Source: a virus
Length of the DNA stretch: 22,726 bases
IMG/VR virus record: IMGVR_UViG_3300037071_001467
Location: 1-22,726 of that record
Reading direction: 5' to 3' (one strand)
Positions 3,712 through 11,986 of the stretch are shown in pieces (position 1 is the stretch's first letter; each line of letters begins with the position of its first letter). The position numbers and the translations under genes were made by a program. Under the pieces are notes generated by a model. The model made no database searches, was not told the origin of the DNA, and worked only from the letters and a program-made list of their open reading frames with translations.

Positions 3712-3883
3712 GCGTCAAGGTCGATGCGAGCAACGGCGTCGGCGACAGAAGCGACATCGGCGAGTCTCCACAAGCGACAACGGCGACAGCGGCAACGATG
3801 GGAGGAGCGAGGGATCCTATCGCAGACTAGGACGTGTGTCGTACGACCTTAGTCCTACCTTCGCGCTCGAGCTTACAGAAAGT
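3712..3883. other. Convergent intergenic region with no gene recognised
   Basis: Between the rightward HTH gene and the leftward end of the structural operon lie about 170 bases with repeated GCGACA words (about 3738-3793) and a 30-bp interrupted dyad (3828-3857). No convincing ORF is seen. A terminator or a protein-binding site would be expected here, because two transcription units meet. Confidence 0.5.
3828..3857. repeat. 30-bp interrupted dyad: TAGGAC - TCGTACGA - GTCCTA
   Basis: The outer arms TAGGAC (3828-3833) and GTCCTA (3852-3857) are perfect inverted repeats placed symmetrically, 5 bases on each side, around the perfect 8-bp palindrome TCGTACGA (3839-3846). The result is 20 matched positions in a 30-bp two-fold symmetric site. 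It could be a transcription terminator stem, an operator for a dimeric regulator or a recombination site. No T-run follows it, which argues against a simple terminator. Confidence 0.6.
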
Positions 3884-4066
3884 TTAGAAGACGCGCCGCC
3901 ATCGCCGGCCGCACGTCCAGCACTCCCAGGCGCGCGCGCCGTCGAGGTCGCGCGCGAAGATCGGATCGGCATGGAAGAGGCGGCACCGCAGAGGCCGCGC
4001 CTTCCGCGCGAGCGCGCGCGCCGCCGATCGGCGCCTCAGGTTGCGGACGGCGCGGATGATGCCCAT
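3884..4066 (-). CDS. Small basic zinc-binding protein (60 aa)
   Basis: The ATG at 4066 overlaps the end of the hydrolase-lectin gene and has GGAG seven bases upstream. The N-terminal half is strongly basic (AVRNLRRRSAARALARKARP). The pattern C28-x3-H32 with C49-x2-C52 (CRLFH ... CWTC) gives a complete four-ligand zinc site. Such short zinc-finger proteins are common at the ends of phage operons, and a nucleic-acid-binding role is possible. It is the last minus-strand gene before the convergent regulatory region. Function is unknown. Confidence 0.6.
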   Translation of the reverse strand: MGIIRAVRNLRRRSAARALARKARPLRCRLFHADPIFARDLDGARAWECWTCGRRWRRVF

Positions 4067-5751
4067 AGCGGGACTCCGAGATCGCCATAGATGACGAGGA
4101 GCCCGTCATCCTGTAATTGCGCCATCGCCCCAGGCGCGGAGGTCCCGGCGGCCCAGGCCGGCGAGCCGTCGACGCGGTACAGGACGAGGTTCCCGTCAAC
4201 CTGCATGTTGAGACGGCCCGGCGCGGCGTCGTCATAGCGGCACACGGTACCCGTTGACCAGATCGGAACGGCGCCGGCCTCCTCGGTCGCCGCGCGATAC
4301 AGGACGACGTTCCCGTCGCCTTGCATCTCGAGCGTATACGCCTTGGACGGCGAGACGAGCTTCTCGCCAACCTCGAGGTAGTCGTTTTCGTACAACGCGG
4401 CGCGGTCCGGAGGAGGCGGCGGCGGACCGGCCGCGCCGCCTCCGAGGTCGCGGAGGACCGTCGCGATCTCCGGCATGTGCGGGAGCTCCCAGACGAATCG
4501 GACCTCCCGATACCCGTTGTAGTACTCGTTCGGGAGATGCCCGTTCCAGACGCACCACTCACTATGCGCGACGTACATCGGCCAGCCGGCGCCGATCGTG
4601 TGCTCGCAATCGCGTTGCACCTTGGCGGCGTCCGTCCCTTCGCCGCCGGCGCTCGAGCCCGGTCCCGGCGGCTCGTTGTTGATCTTCGGGAGGTTCGGAT
4701 AGAAGGCGTTGAACGAATAGGGATCGTTCCACTTGGAGTCGTCGCGCATCGTATGGATCGTGCATTCGTTGGCGCCGGCGCCGTCGCCGCCATAGAGCTC
4801 GTCGAAACTCGCTTGCATCTCTTCGTTGGTTGGCGATTTGCCGGTCCCACCGGAGCCATGCGCGAGCGCCGGCGAGGACAACGACAGGAGGAAGCCAGGA
4901 GGCAGCTTGGCGCGCATATCGCGGCCGGCGGCGCGGACCTCTTCCGGTGTCCAATGGTTCGCTAGAAATTCGTTCATACACTCGAACGACCGGATCGCCT
5001 CCCACCGTCCAGCGCTCGCGGCGATGATGCGATCGTGAAAGCGTCGCCGGTCGTCCTCGGTTGGGGTTTGGTTCCGTCCGCCGTAGATCGTGCAATGCGC
5101 TTGCAGGCCGCGGCCGCCGAGGAGGTCCAACATCCGCCGGTAGCGATCTTCCCATCCCTCATTGATCCAGACGCCGGCATCGCGCCACACGTCCGGCGAT
5201 CCGTGCGACTCGCCTTCCACGGCGAGCATGACGCGGAAGACCGTCGGCGCCATCTCGCCGAGGATCCAATCGAAGTTGGCCTTGGCCTCGTCCGGCCATT
5301 GCTCGAGCGCCGTTTGGAGGCAAAACCAGCCGAAGGCGATCGTGCAAGACTTCGCCGCGCCGCCGGCATCGCCCGGCGTCCCAGAATCGAAGAGCGGCCA
5401 GCCGGAGGCGTCGATCCATTCGTTATGCGGCCGCCACTCTTCCGGCGCCGCCGGAGACCAGCCAGGACCGGCAATGATGCCCATGTCATGCCCGGCGGCC
5501 GAATTGATGACGTCGACGCGATCGCCTTCGGGTACCGCGACATAGTCGTACGAGGTCCGGATCCCGTTCGGGAAGGTATACCCGGCCTCGCCGTCGTTTT
5601 TCGTGAGGAGCCCCCAACGCTCGCCGGCCGGCAATGCCAGGAGGAGGCGTTGCAGGAATTCCCCGCAGGCCTCCGGCGTATTCCATTGGAGGAGGTGCGG
5701 GTATTGCGCGTCGACCTCCTCGACGATCGCCTTGTGATTCGGGACAGCCAT
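4036..5751 (-). CDS. Glycoside-hydrolase-like protein fused to a bulb-type (mannose-binding) lectin domain (571 aa)
   Basis: The start at 5751 (MAVPNHKAIVEEVDAQYP) is chosen because GAGGAGG lies eight bases upstream; an ATG 39 bases earlier would include that site. Residues about 1-125 form an N-terminal module (WGLLTKNDGEAGYTFPNG, then DYVAVPEGDRVDVINS). Residues about 135-430 look like a TIM-barrel hydrolase of the GH-A kind: FECMNEF with E261 as possible acid/base and KINNEP with E360 as possible nucleophile. A GPPPPPP linker follows. The last 123 residues are a bulb lectin with three QxDxNxVxY-type motifs: MQGDGNVVLY (about 476), MQVDGNLVLY (about 516) and LQDDGLLVIY (about 546, Asn replaced by Leu). 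It lies after the tail genes, so it is probably a cell-wall or capsule hydrolase, either a lysin or a tail-associated depolymerase. The catalytic residues are inferred by motif only. Confidence 0.75.
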   Translation of the reverse strand: MAVPNHKAIVEEVDAQYPHLLQWNTPEACGEFLQRLLLALPAGERWGLLTKNDGEAGYTFPNGIRTSYDYVAVPEGDRVDVINSAAGHDMGIIAGPGWSPAAPEEWRPHNEWIDASGWPLFDSGTPGDAGGAAKSCTIAFGWFCLQTALEQWPDEAKANFDWILGEMAPTVFRVMLAVEGESHGSPDVWRDAGVWINEGWEDRYRRMLDLLGGRGLQAHCTIYGGRNQTPTEDDRRRFHDRIIAASAGRWEAIRSFECMNEFLANHWTPEEVRAAGRDMRAKLPPGFLLSLSSPALAHGSGGTGKSPTNEEMQASFDELYGGDGAGANECTIHTMRDDSKWNDPYSFNAFYPNLPKINNEPPGPGSSAGGEGTDAAKVQRDCEHTIGAGWPMYVAHSEWCVWNGHLPNEYYNGYREVRFVWELPHMPEIATVLRDLGGGAAGPPPPPPDRAALYENDYLEVGEKLVSPSKAYTLEMQGDGNVVLYRAATEEAGAVPIWSTGTVCRYDDAAPGRLNMQVDGNLVLYRVDGSPAWAAGTSAPGAMAQLQDDGLLVIYGDLGVPLWASSAPSAT

Positions 5752-6520: not shown

Positions 6521-9500
6521 TTAGCCTCGCGGTTGCTCGCGCATCCGCCGAATCAGGTCCTCGAAGGTAAACCGCTCCGAGCTCGCCTCGACCTCGAAGA
6601 CCGGGAGAAGCGCCGGCGTGAATTCCCGGATCGTGACGGATTGAATCACAAAGGTTGAGGTCAAGTGGTACGGCTCAACAAGAATGTTGACGACGATCGT
6701 CTGACCGGCGCGCGTGTTGATGTCGCGCGAGTTGTACTTGACGCGGAGTTGGACCTCGTTCCGCGCGGCGAGATGCGCCCGGCCGCGCGCGCGCGCCTCC
6801 GTCGCCGACAGCCGGCGATCTTGGATGACGTCCTCGACGATACCGCTATGCGTCCCGCCGGCCGCCGAGGTAAAGAGCGCGGTGACGAGCGCTTGCGCCG
6901 CGGCGTCGTCGACCGTCATCCACAAGTTAATCGCGTCGCCTTTCTTGATCGGATAGCGGATGGCGCCGGTCCCGGAGGCCGGGATCCCGGTCACCGATGG
7001 CGCCGCCGTCACGGTCGAGTTATACGAGATCGAGGCTTCGATGCTGCCGGGACCGGAGGCCGGGATCCCGGTCAAGGCGCTCGCGGAGATCGCCGTATAC
7101 CGGATGACTTGTTGCCCGTTGCCGATGACGGCCCATCCGCCGGACGCGGCGAAGCCGGAGGCGCCGGCGACGATGAGCGAGGTACTCCCAGGGTTGACTT
7201 GTCCGGCCGGTTGCTGCAAGCCGGAGCCGTCCGTTGCCGGCGGCGCCGCGCCGAGCGTCGCATCGACGGCTTGATCGGTGTAGACGGTCGTGACGTTGTC
7301 GGCAATCGAGGCCAGGTACTTCAGCGCGCCGCCGCCGGCCGCCGTGCGATAGAGCTTCCGCGCGATGACCGCGCTCGCGCCCACCGGGATCGCCGACAGT
7401 GCCACGCGGTTCGCGAGCGCCGTTCCGGTCGTTGGCGGCGCCGTCGGAATCCGCGCACTATCCCGGACGGTATCGACGATCGTTGCCGTCGTGTTATCCG
7501 CGATCGAGAGGATGAGCCGATAGTCCTCGGCGTTGTTGCGGCTCGTCCGGTAGATACGCCGGCCGGTCACGTCCGCGCCGCCGAGCGGGATCTTGGTCAA
7601 GGTGACGGCGTGCGCGCCGGACAGGTCGATCGTCGGCGGCGCGGCGCCGAGCGCGGCCGCGGCCGCCGTGTCCGTATAGGTCGTCGAGGAGTTATTCGCG
7701 ATCGTCGTGACCTTCTGGTACCCGGTAAAGCCCGGCTTCGCGCGGTAGATGTGGCGCTTTTGCGTCCCGCTCGGCCCGGTCGGGATCGCCGTCAACGGGA
7801 TCGCGTTTTGTGTCGTTCCGGCGGACGGCCCAGGGTTGCCGGCGATCGAGGCGCTCGAGCTCGTATCGGTGTATGCCGTCGTTGAGTTGTTGGCAAACCG
7901 GACGACGCGGCGCCAGACCGGAGCGCCGTTTGAGGAGCGATAGACCGAGCGCGCCGTGACGCCGGCAGGTCCCGTCGGGATCGTGAGCGGGACGCTACTT
8001 TGCGGCGCCCCAGGTGACGGCGCCGGATTGCCGGCGATCGAGGAGGTCGAGCTCGTATCGGTATAGGTCGTCGCCGTGTTGTTGCCGATCGCCGTGACCC
8101 GGCGCCAGACGCCGGAATTGGCGACGGTCCGGTACAGGAGCCGGGACGTGACGCCGGCCGGTCCGAGCGGGAGCGTCAGCGGGAGCGCGGTTGTCGGCGG
8201 CGCGGCGACGGTGCTCGTCGTGGGCGGCGCTTGCCCGGTCGATCCAGGTCCGCCAGCCAGTACCAGATCATCAAACGTCGTCGCCGTGTTATTGGCAATC
8301 GTTCCACAGTGCGCCATCGTCGACGAGCCGGCCGATTGGCTGCGATAGATTTTCCGCTGCGTCACATTCGCCGGCCCGATCGGGATCCCGAAGACGACGG
8401 CGCCATTGCCCGGAAAAATTTGGATCCATGCGGTCAACGGGCTGATTGTTGTTTCGCCGGTCGCCGTGACGAAGGTCACCCCCCATCGGTAATTTCCAGG
8501 GACAAAGTTCCCGGCCGCCTGCGACACAGAGACCGGCCCAGGGGGTACCAACAAGATCGTCGTCCCGATCGTGACAGGTTCCGAGTACGGCCCAATGGTC
8601 GACTCGCCGGCGGCCGTTTGATGGCTCATCGCGTAGTGAAAGGTATTTGGTTCGATACTGCCGCCGGTCGTTGGCGTCCCAGGCAACGGCGCCGAGACCG
8701 GGACCGGCGACGGCGAGCCATAGCCGAGTGTGACGCCGGATCCCGGTCCGGTCGTCCCTTCGCCGTCCGCGGTCTCGAAGGTCATCGTGTAGAAAAACGA
8801 GTCAAGCTCCATCGCGCCGGCAAATCCCGGCGTCCCAGGCGTAACCGGCGCCGTTGGCGTCGGCGCGACACTGGCGAGCGTCAACGTCACAACCGAGCTC
8901 GCCGGTCCCGGCATCGACTCGCCGCCGGCCGTCTCAAAGGTCGCGAGGTACTGATAACTCCCAGGCTCGATCGCGCCGTTGAATCCAGGCGTTGCCGGGA
9001 CCGGCGCGGCGAGCGGGGCGGCGCCGTCCGGGACCGTTGCGCCGACGAGCGGCCCGATGATGGTCTCGCCGGTTGCCGTGACGAACGTGACGCCGTAGCC
9101 GTGCCAGCCGGAATCCGGTCCGGCGCCGGCCGTCATCGATCCGATCGTCAACGCGGTCTCCGGCGGCTGGATCAATCCAACGACGGCCGAGACCTTCGGC
9201 GAGACGAGCGACTCGCCGGCCGCGGTTTGGAACGTGACGGCGTAATCGTGTTGACCGGCTTCCATGCCGGCGCCGCCGATGACCGTCGCGCGCGGCGCGG
9301 AGCTCGCCGAGGCGCCGGGACCGACGAGCGCGCCGCCGCCTCCGGCGAAGACGCCGGTATAGCGGAGCCGTTGCGGTCCGGAGATGACCTCGCCGCCGGT
9401 TGGCTCATACCAGCCGATCGAGTCGACCGGGATCATCGTCTCGCCGGCGCGGAGCTCGGCCATCGAATTCGACCCGCCGGCCTCGATATAGACGCGCGTC

Positions 9501-10294
9501 ACGAACTGGCCGCCGTCATGGTCGATGACCAGCGCGCGCAGCGTCGGATGGATCGGGTTGATCGGTTGCGGCGCCGTCGGCGCCGCGGGATCCGCCGTCG
9601 TGTAGAGATGCAGCCGCTTGTAATAGTCGACGTACCAGTAGCCGCCGAGCCGTTGCACAAGATTGGACAACGCCGTCGGCACGTCTTGATTACTGACCGT
9701 AAACTCGTCGAGCGCCGGAAGGCCGGCGGCGACATACTCGCTCGAGAAGCCAGGCGCGCCGAGCGCGAGGAGCTCTTGCGCGATGGTCGTCCCTGAGACG
9801 TTCGTCCAACGGTTGAGGACGAGCCGTTGCCGGAGCCCGAAGGTCCAATCGATCGCCGAGACGTCGTAATGGTAATTCGCCGGCGTCCCGGTGTACCCGT
9901 GCGACAGGTTGAGGATTTGCCCGGCGAAGAGGCGCTCGCCGTTGTTCTTCGATCCGATGGTGATGAGGACGTCTTGCCCGATCGCCGGGACAACGCCGCG
10001 GACGCGGAAGGTCGCGCGGTTTGGCGTCTCGTTGAGGACGTCGGTAATCGTCAGGTTGCCGACGATCTTCCCGCCTCCGCTCGGCCCAACGCCCACATGG
10101 ATCCCGCCGATCGAGACGAAGCCGCCTCCGCCAGTGTAGTTACTCCGCGTCGCGCCAGAGCGCGCGATATTGGAGATCGCATAGGTCCAAGCCTGAATAC
10201 CGACGGCGAGCGGCCAGCCGGCGCGCGTCGCGCCGGAGCGCGCAAGGCCGGCCCTCGCCGGCGTGATGGCTTTTTGCGCGCCGGAGATTGCCAT
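6521..10294 (-). CDS. Tail hub/fibre protein with two families of tandem beta repeats (1257 aa)
   Basis: The protein follows the tape measure gene by three bases. Residues 1-340 look like a baseplate hub module (VVPAIGQDVLITIG; YVDYYKRLHLYTT; TLRALVIDHDGGQFVTRVYI), and residues about 1110-1257 return to hub-like sequence (RARGRAHLAARNEVQLRVKY; TRAGQTIVVNILVEPYHL). Between them are six A-type repeats (about 345-630; consensus YxYxVTFxTAxGESxxGP) and six B-type repeats (about 636-1020; consensus RxxYRT, then IANNTTTTYTDT). Both types resemble Ig/fibronectin-like domains found in phage tail proteins. The likely role is tail tip assembly with repeat arms extending toward the host surface. The length is plausible for such a fusion. 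Hub assignment is inference from position after the tape measure and from the split flanking domains. Confidence 0.8.
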   Translation of the reverse strand: MAISGAQKAITPARAGLARSGATRAGWPLAVGIQAWTYAISNIARSGATRSNYTGGGGFVSIGGIHVGVGPSGGGKIVGNLTITDVLNETPNRATFRVRGVVPAIGQDVLITIGSKNNGERLFAGQILNLSHGYTGTPANYHYDVSAIDWTFGLRQRLVLNRWTNVSGTTIAQELLALGAPGFSSEYVAAGLPALDEFTVSNQDVPTALSNLVQRLGGYWYVDYYKRLHLYTTADPAAPTAPQPINPIHPTLRALVIDHDGGQFVTRVYIEAGGSNSMAELRAGETMIPVDSIGWYEPTGGEVISGPQRLRYTGVFAGGGGALVGPGASASSAPRATVIGGAGMEAGQHDYAVTFQTAAGESLVSPKVSAVVGLIQPPETALTIGSMTAGAGPDSGWHGYGVTFVTATGETIIGPLVGATVPDGAAPLAAPVPATPGFNGAIEPGSYQYLATFETAGGESMPGPASSVVTLTLASVAPTPTAPVTPGTPGFAGAMELDSFFYTMTFETADGEGTTGPGSGVTLGYGSPSPVPVSAPLPGTPTTGGSIEPNTFHYAMSHQTAAGESTIGPYSEPVTIGTTILLVPPGPVSVSQAAGNFVPGNYRWGVTFVTATGETTISPLTAWIQIFPGNGAVVFGIPIGPANVTQRKIYRSQSAGSSTMAHCGTIANNTATTFDDLVLAGGPGSTGQAPPTTSTVAAPPTTALPLTLPLGPAGVTSRLLYRTVANSGVWRRVTAIGNNTATTYTDTSSTSSIAGNPAPSPGAPQSSVPLTIPTGPAGVTARSVYRSSNGAPVWRRVVRFANNSTTAYTDTSSSASIAGNPGPSAGTTQNAIPLTAIPTGPSGTQKRHIYRAKPGFTGYQKVTTIANNSSTTYTDTAAAAALGAAPPTIDLSGAHAVTLTKIPLGGADVTGRRIYRTSRNNAEDYRLILSIADNTTATIVDTVRDSARIPTAPPTTGTALANRVALSAIPVGASAVIARKLYRTAAGGGALKYLASIADNVTTVYTDQAVDATLGAAPPATDGSGLQQPAGQVNPGSTSLIVAGASGFAASGGWAVIGNGQQVIRYTAISASALTGIPASGPGSIEASISYNSTVTAAPSVTGIPASGTGAIRYPIKKGDAINLWMTVDDAAAQALVTALFTSAAGGTHSGIVEDVIQDRRLSATEARARGRAHLAARNEVQLRVKYNSRDINTRAGQTIVVNILVEPYHLTSTFVIQSVTIREFTPALLPVFEVEASSERFTFEDLIRRMREQPRG
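6972..7074. repeat. 22-bp exact direct repeat pair encoding TGIPASG
   Basis: The same 22 bases occur at 6972-6993 and 7053-7074, 81 bp apart. Each encodes TGIPASG followed by G near the C-terminal end of the repeat region of the hub protein. The internal GGGATCCC makes each copy partly palindromic. It is a recent local duplication compared with the diverged repeats elsewhere in this gene. Confidence 0.65.
7235..9262 (-). repeat. Twelve tandem protein repeats (six A-type, six B-type) encoded in the hub gene
   Basis: A-type units (9262 to about 8400) carry signatures such as YAVTFQTAAGESLVSP, YGVTFVTATGETIIGP, YLATFETAGGESMPGP and WGVTFVTATGETTISP. B-type units (about 8390 to 7235) carry RKIYRSQ, RLLYRTV, RSVYRSS, RHIYRAK, RRIYRTS and RKLYRTA, each followed by a NNTTTTYTDT-like strand about 15-20 residues later. 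Spacing is roughly 45-65 residues. The DNA is diverged, so these are old duplications kept at protein level. Confidence 0.8.
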
Positions 10295-10297
10295 CGC

Positions 10298-11986
10298 TCA
10301 GGCTCGGACGCCTTGCGCGCGCCAGTCGGCGGCAAGCGCCTCCTTCACGATGCGCGCGATCTCGTTCTTATCGCCCATCACGGTATTCACGTTGACGGTT
10401 TGCGTCGTCGACGAGCTCGACGAGCTCGAGGTCGCGCCGGTCATCGCGAAGGCGTTCGGCCCTTCCGCGGCGTGCGACCAATCCCATCCGTGCTGAATTT
10501 CCCAGGCGCGCGGATTGGTTTGGAGGAGGTTCCATTCGCTGTCGGACATATTCGCCGGCTTGACGGCCGGCCCAACGGTCCCGGACATCGTGCCCTCGCC
10601 GGCGGCGACGGCGTCCATTGCTTCGCCCCATGACAACGCGACGCGCTCGACCGCGGCGACTTGCCGATCGGCCGTCTCATCGGCCTTGGCGCCGATGCCC
10701 TCGTACGTGTCGAGCGTATAGGTCCCGTAACTATCGGCGGCCAGCCGCGCCGCCTCAGCCGCGCGTTGGAAATCGGCGATTTGCTTCTCGGTAAAATGCT
10801 CGCTATGCGCGAGCGCCGTTGCGTACTTCTCGGCGGCCGTCGCCGCAATCGCCTCGAGCTCCGCGCGCGAGACGCCGCCCAGGTCCCGCCAGGGCGCCTC
10901 TTGCGCTTTGACCGCCAATCCCATTTGCGCCGTTGCGACCTCGGTTTTCGCCGCGGCGTCATCCAGGCCGGCGGCGTACGTGGCCCACATGCCCGACGAC
11001 GGATCCGAAAACGAGCGCGTCACGGCGACGAGCTCGGTCGTCGCGTCGTAGACCTTTTTTAACTCCGACGGCGCTTGCAGGCCGAGCGCGGTATACGCGG
11101 TAAGCGCCTCGTCGAGCGCCTTACGGAGCTCCTCCTTTTTGTCCTTCGTCAGCTTCGTCAGGTTCTCAATCCCGCCGAGCGCCTCGAGGTACGTATCGGC
11201 GCGCGCGAGGTCGTCCATGCTGAACAGCTTGTTGCTGAACTCGGCGGCCTTCTCCGCGGCGTCACGGACGCGGCCCAGTTCGGCGGCGTTGGTTTTCGCC
11301 TTGTCGGTATAGTCGGCCGTGTTTTTCGTGATGATGCGAATCGCCTCGTCCATCGAGGTAATTTGCCGGCCGGCGATCTCCGAGGCCGTCGCGAGCGTAT
11401 GGGCGCCTTCCGCGGCCTCGACCGCGGCGACATCGCCCCATCCGAGGAGCTTCGCCGTGTTATCGGCGATCGCTTGTGTCCAGCCGGTCCACTCGCCGAT
11501 CTTCGTCCCGATATTCCATCCCGCCATCGCCGAAGCGAAGACGAGGCCGGCCGTGCCGAGCGCGCCGATCTCCGTTGCGGTTTTGCCAGCCGCGGAGCCG
11601 AGCTCCGTAATCGCGCCGGGCAACGGGCCGAGGTTGACGCCAACCGCCGAGAGGGATTTATCAACCTGATCGAAACTCTGTTTAAAGGTCATCCCGGACG
11701 AGGCCGCGGCCGCCGTCTCCGTCTCGAGCGCGGCGATCGATGGCGCCGTCGTATCGGCCGACGTCCCAACGTTTTGAATCGCGCGATCGACCTTCGCGAG
11801 CTCGGCCGGCGCCTCGTTGCCGAGATGCTCAAACTTGGCAAGCGTCTCTTGCACGGCTTGTTCGAGCTCGTCCTCCATGCTGCCGGCCGTCGTCTTGACG
11901 GCGACATCGGCCGCGGCGAGACTGCGCTCGAGCTCGGCGAGGTCTCCGGCAATCCGGATGACCATCCCAGGATTGGATCCCGCCAT
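10298..11986 (-). CDS. Tape measure protein (562 aa, short)
   Basis: The protein is helical and Ala-rich, lies between the chaperone genes and the hub gene, and has a hydrophobic segment at about 137-162 (GALGTAGLVFASAMAGWNIG). These are the usual signs of a tail tape measure protein. The N-terminus (LAELERSLAAADVAVKTTAG) looks like coiled coil. The C-terminal end has a run of seven Ser (about 520-526), then VNVNTVMGDKNEIARIVKEA, typical of tape measure tails. At 562 residues it would predict a short tail, about 80-85 nm using 0.15 nm per residue. It starts directly after the stop of the upstream gene. Confidence 0.85.
   Translation of the reverse strand: MAGSNPGMVIRIAGDLAELERSLAAADVAVKTTAGSMEDELEQAVQETLAKFEHLGNEAPAELAKVDRAIQNVGTSADTTAPSIAALETETAAAASSGMTFKQSFDQVDKSLSAVGVNLGPLPGAITELGSAAGKTATEIGALGTAGLVFASAMAGWNIGTKIGEWTGWTQAIADNTAKLLGWGDVAAVEAAEGAHTLATASEIAGRQITSMDEAIRIITKNTADYTDKAKTNAAELGRVRDAAEKAAEFSNKLFSMDDLARADTYLEALGGIENLTKLTKDKKEELRKALDEALTAYTALGLQAPSELKKVYDATTELVAVTRSFSDPSSGMWATYAAGLDDAAAKTEVATAQMGLAVKAQEAPWRDLGGVSRAELEAIAATAAEKYATALAHSEHFTEKQIADFQRAAEAARLAADSYGTYTLDTYEGIGAKADETADRQVAAVERVALSWGEAMDAVAAGEGTMSGTVGPAVKPANMSDSEWNLLQTNPRAWEIQHGWDWSHAAEGPNAFAMTGATSSSSSSSTTQTVNVNTVMGDKNEIARIVKEALAADWRAQGVRA

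Follow-up and report, generated by a model that had tools for sequence, protein, structure and literature searches.

A phage gene that joins a bulb-type lectin to a predicted clan GH-A-like barrel

What might a phage do with a protein that carries a bulb-type (monocot mannose-binding) lectin behind a putative glycoside hydrolase? The question is raised by a gene in an IMG/VR virus record of 22,726 bases, possibly a fragment, the whole of which was analysed and is called the window here. The original prediction proposed a targeted hydrolase built from a catalytic TIM-barrel-like part, a proline linker and a C-terminal lectin, and considered such lectins uncommon in phages. In this study, we examine the gene, the predicted structure of its product, its relatives in viral contigs and the explanations that compete for its role. 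We lean, if only somewhat, towards a phage-encoded, lectin-targeted glycoside hydrolase that acts on a host surface polysaccharide. Such a protein would work on a known principle with known parts, and its novelty lies in how these are combined, in a barrel family without assignment and in a lectin that is exchanged at a fixed site.

The gene, its setting and its domains

The gene occupies positions 4036-5751 of the minus strand, a strand that the original prediction had not given. Its open frame of 571 residues, from an ATG at 5751 to a stop at 4036, and a GGAGG-type ribosome site immediately 5' of the ATG indicate that it is real. The supposed phage setting was likewise borne out, as Pfam and PHROG family matches identify a large terminase, a portal, a capsid protein with protease and a major tail protein in the window. 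In this tailed-phage contig the structural or tail module ends with the barrel-lectin gene, and the two virion-type genes that precede this gene are both kept in three related contigs (L004, L005 and L007). It also closes the structural module in L005, with an integrase-like gene after it, and in L003, L008, L009 and L081 the barrel gene adjoins a terminase gene and not a tail gene. The G+C content of the window is about 66%. Its terminase and portal find their best matches in phages of Firmicutes and Proteobacteria at less than 50% identity, a level from which no host was assigned; megablast of the window against 50,697 phage records gave no near relative, and a plasmid search gave no useful match. 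A virion-type protein of 1257 residues (6521-10294, minus strand) has a weak internal-virion match and is kept in L004, L005 and L007 with a differing middle.

A first structure prediction of the protein, from an alignment of 5 rows, had a mean pLDDT of 49.6. A second (AlphaFold2, 23 rows) had a mean pLDDT of 82.4 and a pTM of 0.74, and divides the protein into an N-terminal part, followed by a (beta/alpha)8 barrel and then by a bulb-lectin beta-prism. Residues 1-116 (5404-5751, minus strand, as for all features of the gene) are modelled as helices and a small sheet; they are present in all full relatives and have no assigned family. A profile of this part matches the present barrel family alone among the collected loci, a search of phage records gave no informative match (best E 3), and a role in virion attachment is perhaps what it serves. 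The predicted barrel, called clan GH-A-like from the AlphaFold2 model and VIA-align, spans residues ~117-440 (4432-5403). Between it and the lectin (residues ~452-571, 4039-4398), which was assigned by phmmer, fold match and motifs, the translation contains a Pro-rich stretch at residues 444-451 (4399-4422), where a proline linker had been proposed.

A predicted clan GH-A-like barrel and its glutamates

The eight barrel strands of the second prediction follow one another at residues 137-141, 171-177, 217-222, 253-258, 288-290, 330-332, 356-359 and 392-395. When residues 136-440 were compared with known structures by VIA-align, the best match was the GH5 structure 8d89 (Z 20.8), with the GH5 enzymes CmMan5A (1uuq, Z 20.3) and RmMan5B (Z 20) and the GH39 structure 2bfg (Z 18.9) also scoring highly. 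The predicted fold thus agrees with the TIM-barrel-like catalytic part originally proposed, for which comparison with clan GH-A had been suggested and yields Z values of about 20 for GH5 and 19 for GH39. Many of the members of clan GH-A lie within a few Z units of the best match, so that the clan is better supported than any one family. As modelled, the barrel resembles clan GH-A enzymes, and GH5 beta-mannosidases best among them. The barrel and N-terminal part found no sequence match in Pfam, PHROGs, NCBIfam or the PDB, and no glycoside hydrolase model matched any of nine family members at E values of up to 10 (Pfam) or up to 1 (NCBIfam).

Two glutamates are the candidates for catalysis. E261 (4969-4971), preceded by N260, is the predicted acid/base and follows strand 4, and E360 (4672-4674), in an EPxG motif at the end of strand 7, is the predicted nucleophile. 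Both had already been named in the original prediction when they were chosen for comparison, and their place in the model, where strands 4 and 7 end, and their invariance in nine of nine aligned members (33-68% identical to the window protein) uphold that choice. R173, N260, H333 and W402 are also invariant across the nine. The model has the arrangement of clan GH-A, with N260-E261 after the strand 253-258 and E360 after the strand 356-359, and five GH5 exo-mannosidases have in common a residue set that matches R173, N260, E261, H333, E360 and W402 here (PMC8233224). The 99 residues that separate E261 from E360 equal the spacing of E202 and E301 in a Rhizomucor GH5 mannosidase, whose mutants are named in PDB titles. 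From the model, the protein would be like a clan GH-A enzyme in its working. E398, also considered as nucleophile, was rejected; it is Ser in L081 and L142 and Ala in L145.

The likeness to GH5 has a limit. Eight conserved residues define GH5, namely Arg, His, Asn, Glu, His, Tyr, Glu and Trp (PMC3978015), and six of these have a counterpart in the barrel family. The Tyr that follows the strand-6 His is M335 in the window protein and M, V or S in its relatives, and H219, the candidate for the strand-3 His, is doubtful, being Trp in L142. Because the Tyr is missing and the first His is doubtful, the protein should not be filed as GH5, an assignment that we rejected also in view of the lack of a model match. 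The window protein shares with the GH5 exo-beta-mannosidases CmMan5A (1uuq) and RmMan5B (4lyq/4lyr) a barrel fold (Z ~20 over 270 residues), the Asn-Glu after strand 4, the Glu after strand 7, the strand-6 His, the strand-2 Arg and the Trp after strand 8, but differs from them in lacking the strand-6 Tyr, in its added lectin and N-terminal domain and in sequence, at 10-13% identity with no sequence-level match. Among viral models in BFVD, the best structural match was an uncultured Caudovirales protein (A0A6J5R1U1; E 1.1e-12, whole length), although its identity to the window protein is 13% and the global superposition is poor.

The lectin and the exchange of the C-terminus

The lectin reads QGDGNVVLY at residue 477, QVDGNLVLY at 517 and QDDGLLVIY at 547. 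As had been noted originally, two of the three QxDxNxVxY motifs are intact in the translation, whereas in the third the Asn is replaced by Leu. Residues 452-571 match pyocin L2 (2.6e-11), the Mycobacterium smegmatis lectin 4oit (4.8e-10) and putidacin L1 (5.1e-9) in phmmer. The family models score below their cut-offs, namely the NCBIfam putidacin family with 57 bits against 275 (1.5e-15) and Pfam B_lectin with 19.8 against 32.4 bits. The predicted domain has the three-fold beta-prism of bulb lectins (4tkc, Z 17.5, rmsd 2.1, 114 residues aligned; 1xd6, Z 17.2), and over the full domain its fold comes nearest to the bulb lectin of 9oee, an umbrella-toxin protein of Streptomyces (rmsd 1.5, 112 residues). 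In the study of that toxin protein, a beta-propeller, not the bulb lectin, bound the cell-wall polymer (PMC13274773). Such motifs bind D-rhamnose in pyocin L1, whose affinity for the free sugar is millimolar (PMC3916391), so that the motif accommodates mannose and rhamnose alike as candidates; the sugar affinity of a single bulb-lectin site can be very low (PMC3916391). The lectin-like bacteriocins pyocin L1, pyocin L2 and putidacin L1 share the bulb lectin with its QxDxNxVxY motifs and are, with 4oit, the nearest solved lectins by sequence, but they carry tandem lectins and kill without an enzyme, whereas the window protein has one lectin domain on a barrel and so falls outside the tandem type that marks these bacteriocins.

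Bulb lectins proved less rare in phages than the original prediction had supposed, for one strict motif pattern matched at least 119 stretches of viral contigs. Among the 105 lectin-bearing open reading frames in the collected loci, a set gathered by the motif itself and hence not a census, at least 55 resemble lambda gpL tail-tip proteins by pattern. Pfam confirmed two as Phage_tail_L (PF05100, 8.9e-42 and 2.5e-53). Some of the lectin records come from isolate genomes and may be prophages with bacteriocin genes. Bulb-lectin inserts thus seem to be common in gpL-type tail-tip proteins of viral contigs, as in L013 (1319-3016), L021 (504-3341) and about 53 further loci, with up to several in each protein. 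Like the window lectin, they sit in a phage structural gene, but their partner is Phage_tail_L (PF05100) and not a glycosidase-like barrel.

Relatives of the window protein, gathered in several scans of viral contigs, are 33-68% identical over the N-terminal part and were found in viral contigs only. Among those with a complete C-terminus, the lectin is present in the window protein, L002/L003, L081 and L145, and other short C-terminal domains, probably helical as judged from their sequences, take its place in L005, L006, L008, L009, L141 and L142. L004 has no lectin, but its contig ends inside the gene, and the L007 sequence stops short of the C-terminus. The major tail protein and the 1257- and 562-residue proteins of the window are 47-60% identical to those of L004, L005 and L007. 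This common tail module places the lectin difference at the same genomic site, and since the lectin-less L004 and L005 have it, the C-terminus is exchangeable. When a tree was drawn from the shared part, the lectin forms of the window and L003 did not group; L003 stands with lectin-less forms at starred support, and the window row has no firm position. The C-terminal type must have changed at least twice, and the tree is compatible with gain as well as loss of the lectin.

More remote proteins combine similar domains differently. L037 (2983-4632) encodes a remote barrel relative with a bulb lectin at the opposite end, the N-terminus, and in a single profile comparison with the window barrel (E 8.7e-10) both glutamates align with Glu. 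In L003, a second glycosidase-like gene of 271 residues (9668-10483) shares 4 bases with the end of the lectin-barrel gene, has NE and TE motifs and weakly matches the GH39 structure 5jvk (E 0.0028). L118 (7664-9262) has a bulb lectin similar to those of the present family, which forms the N-terminus of another barrel-like protein with the motifs NEAW and EGPGNG. The L118 and L016 proteins and the 271-residue protein of L003 could not be aligned with the window barrel by profile.

Role of the protein and alternative readings

Of the targeted hydrolase first proposed, the predicted GH-A-like barrel, the conserved Glu pair, the lectin motifs and the linker stand, and the rarity of phage bulb lectins does not. 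We infer the catalysis, sugar binding and substrate of the protein as follows. The C-terminal lectin would hold it to a host surface glycan through the two intact motifs, and the barrel would cleave a surface polysaccharide, be it capsule, exopolysaccharide or wall-linked polymer, by a retaining mechanism in which E261 would be the acid/base and E360 the nucleophile. It might do so while borne on the tail or after its release, when the phage adsorbs or spreads. The exchanged C-terminal domain probably sets which surface is bound. The position of the gene as last of the tail module speaks for this role, as does the replacement of the lectin at the syntenic site and again elsewhere on the tree. 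Against a glycosidase stand the lack of a sequence match to any glycosidase family and the replaced GH5 strand-6 Tyr; against a tail role stands the terminase neighbourhood in four relatives, and against targeting by the lectin the very low sugar affinity that a single bulb-lectin site can have.

The same neighbourhoods raise the possibility of a lysis-cassette enzyme, released by a holin at the end of infection to cut a wall-linked polymer, with the lectin as wall-binding domain. The end of a tail module and the vicinity of the terminase are usual places for lysis genes. In L141, a 60-residue protein with two hydrophobic stretches (3826-4008) stops 9 bases short of the gene, another of 60 residues stands directly before the gene in L006 (up to 7991), a 59-residue two-stretch protein lies near it in L142 (2028-2207), and family searches recognised no other lysin in the window. 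However, these small proteins match no lysis family and resemble, weakly at that, families whose function is unknown, no such protein lies beside the gene in the window, and in a fragment the absence of a lysin says little. Clan GH-A is not known to hold a peptidoglycan hydrolase, which we count against a lysis role, and we consider this reading unlikely. Because of that same trait of the clan, and because tail tips are a familiar setting for bulb lectins, we prefer a surface depolymerase. A further reason is that barrel-type depolymerases exist in the tails of Acinetobacter phages, as TIM-barrel (transglycosidase-like) tail-spike enzymes (PMC11823257). The likeness, drawn by description, is that of a phage-encoded barrel-type glycosidase tied to depolymerase activity; those enzymes are tail fibre or spike proteins (PMC11823257), whereas the window protein may be borne on the tail or released.

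The barrel could also have ceased to cleave and serve as a sugar-holding scaffold in a receptor-binding protein, with the lectin adding avidity. The missing GH5 Tyr, the strand-3 His not kept in L142 and the occurrence of bulb lectins in tail-tip proteins are consistent with this, but both glutamates, the preceding Asn, the His of strand 6 and the Trp of strand 8 do not vary even where identity falls to 33-46%, and a dead enzyme, which would not need invariant catalytic residues, is therefore quite improbable. We give the least credence to an auxiliary metabolic enzyme that helps the infected host to use mannan or another soil polysaccharide. The best fold matches are indeed polysaccharide-degrading GH5 mannosidases and mannanases, and GH5-annotated phage proteins exist, but the gene lies among late structural genes or by the terminase, the translated 571-residue protein shows no evident secretion signal, and scans of bacterial genomes, whose patterns reach close relatives only, found no relative.

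For the preferred surface-directed hydrolase, we propose more tentatively that the barrel is an undescribed, virus-restricted family of clan GH-A, a phage chassis that swappable C-terminal domains would aim at different host surfaces. If true, this would add a sugar-cutting enzyme family that sequence libraries have missed, and phages would aim such enzymes by lectin swapping. The natural variants with or without lectin at the same genomic site would offer a testable set for how phages tune their target surface, and the substrate could give a clue to a polymer on the surface of an uncultured host.

Small frames were also seen near the gene. L009 has a holin-like small protein close by (11660-11833), which together with the two-stretch proteins of L141, L006 and L142 makes a set of 57-60 residues. 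In the window, a 60-residue frame at 3884-4066 (minus strand) overlaps the end of the gene, ends in CWTCGRRW and may encode a small zinc-binding protein.
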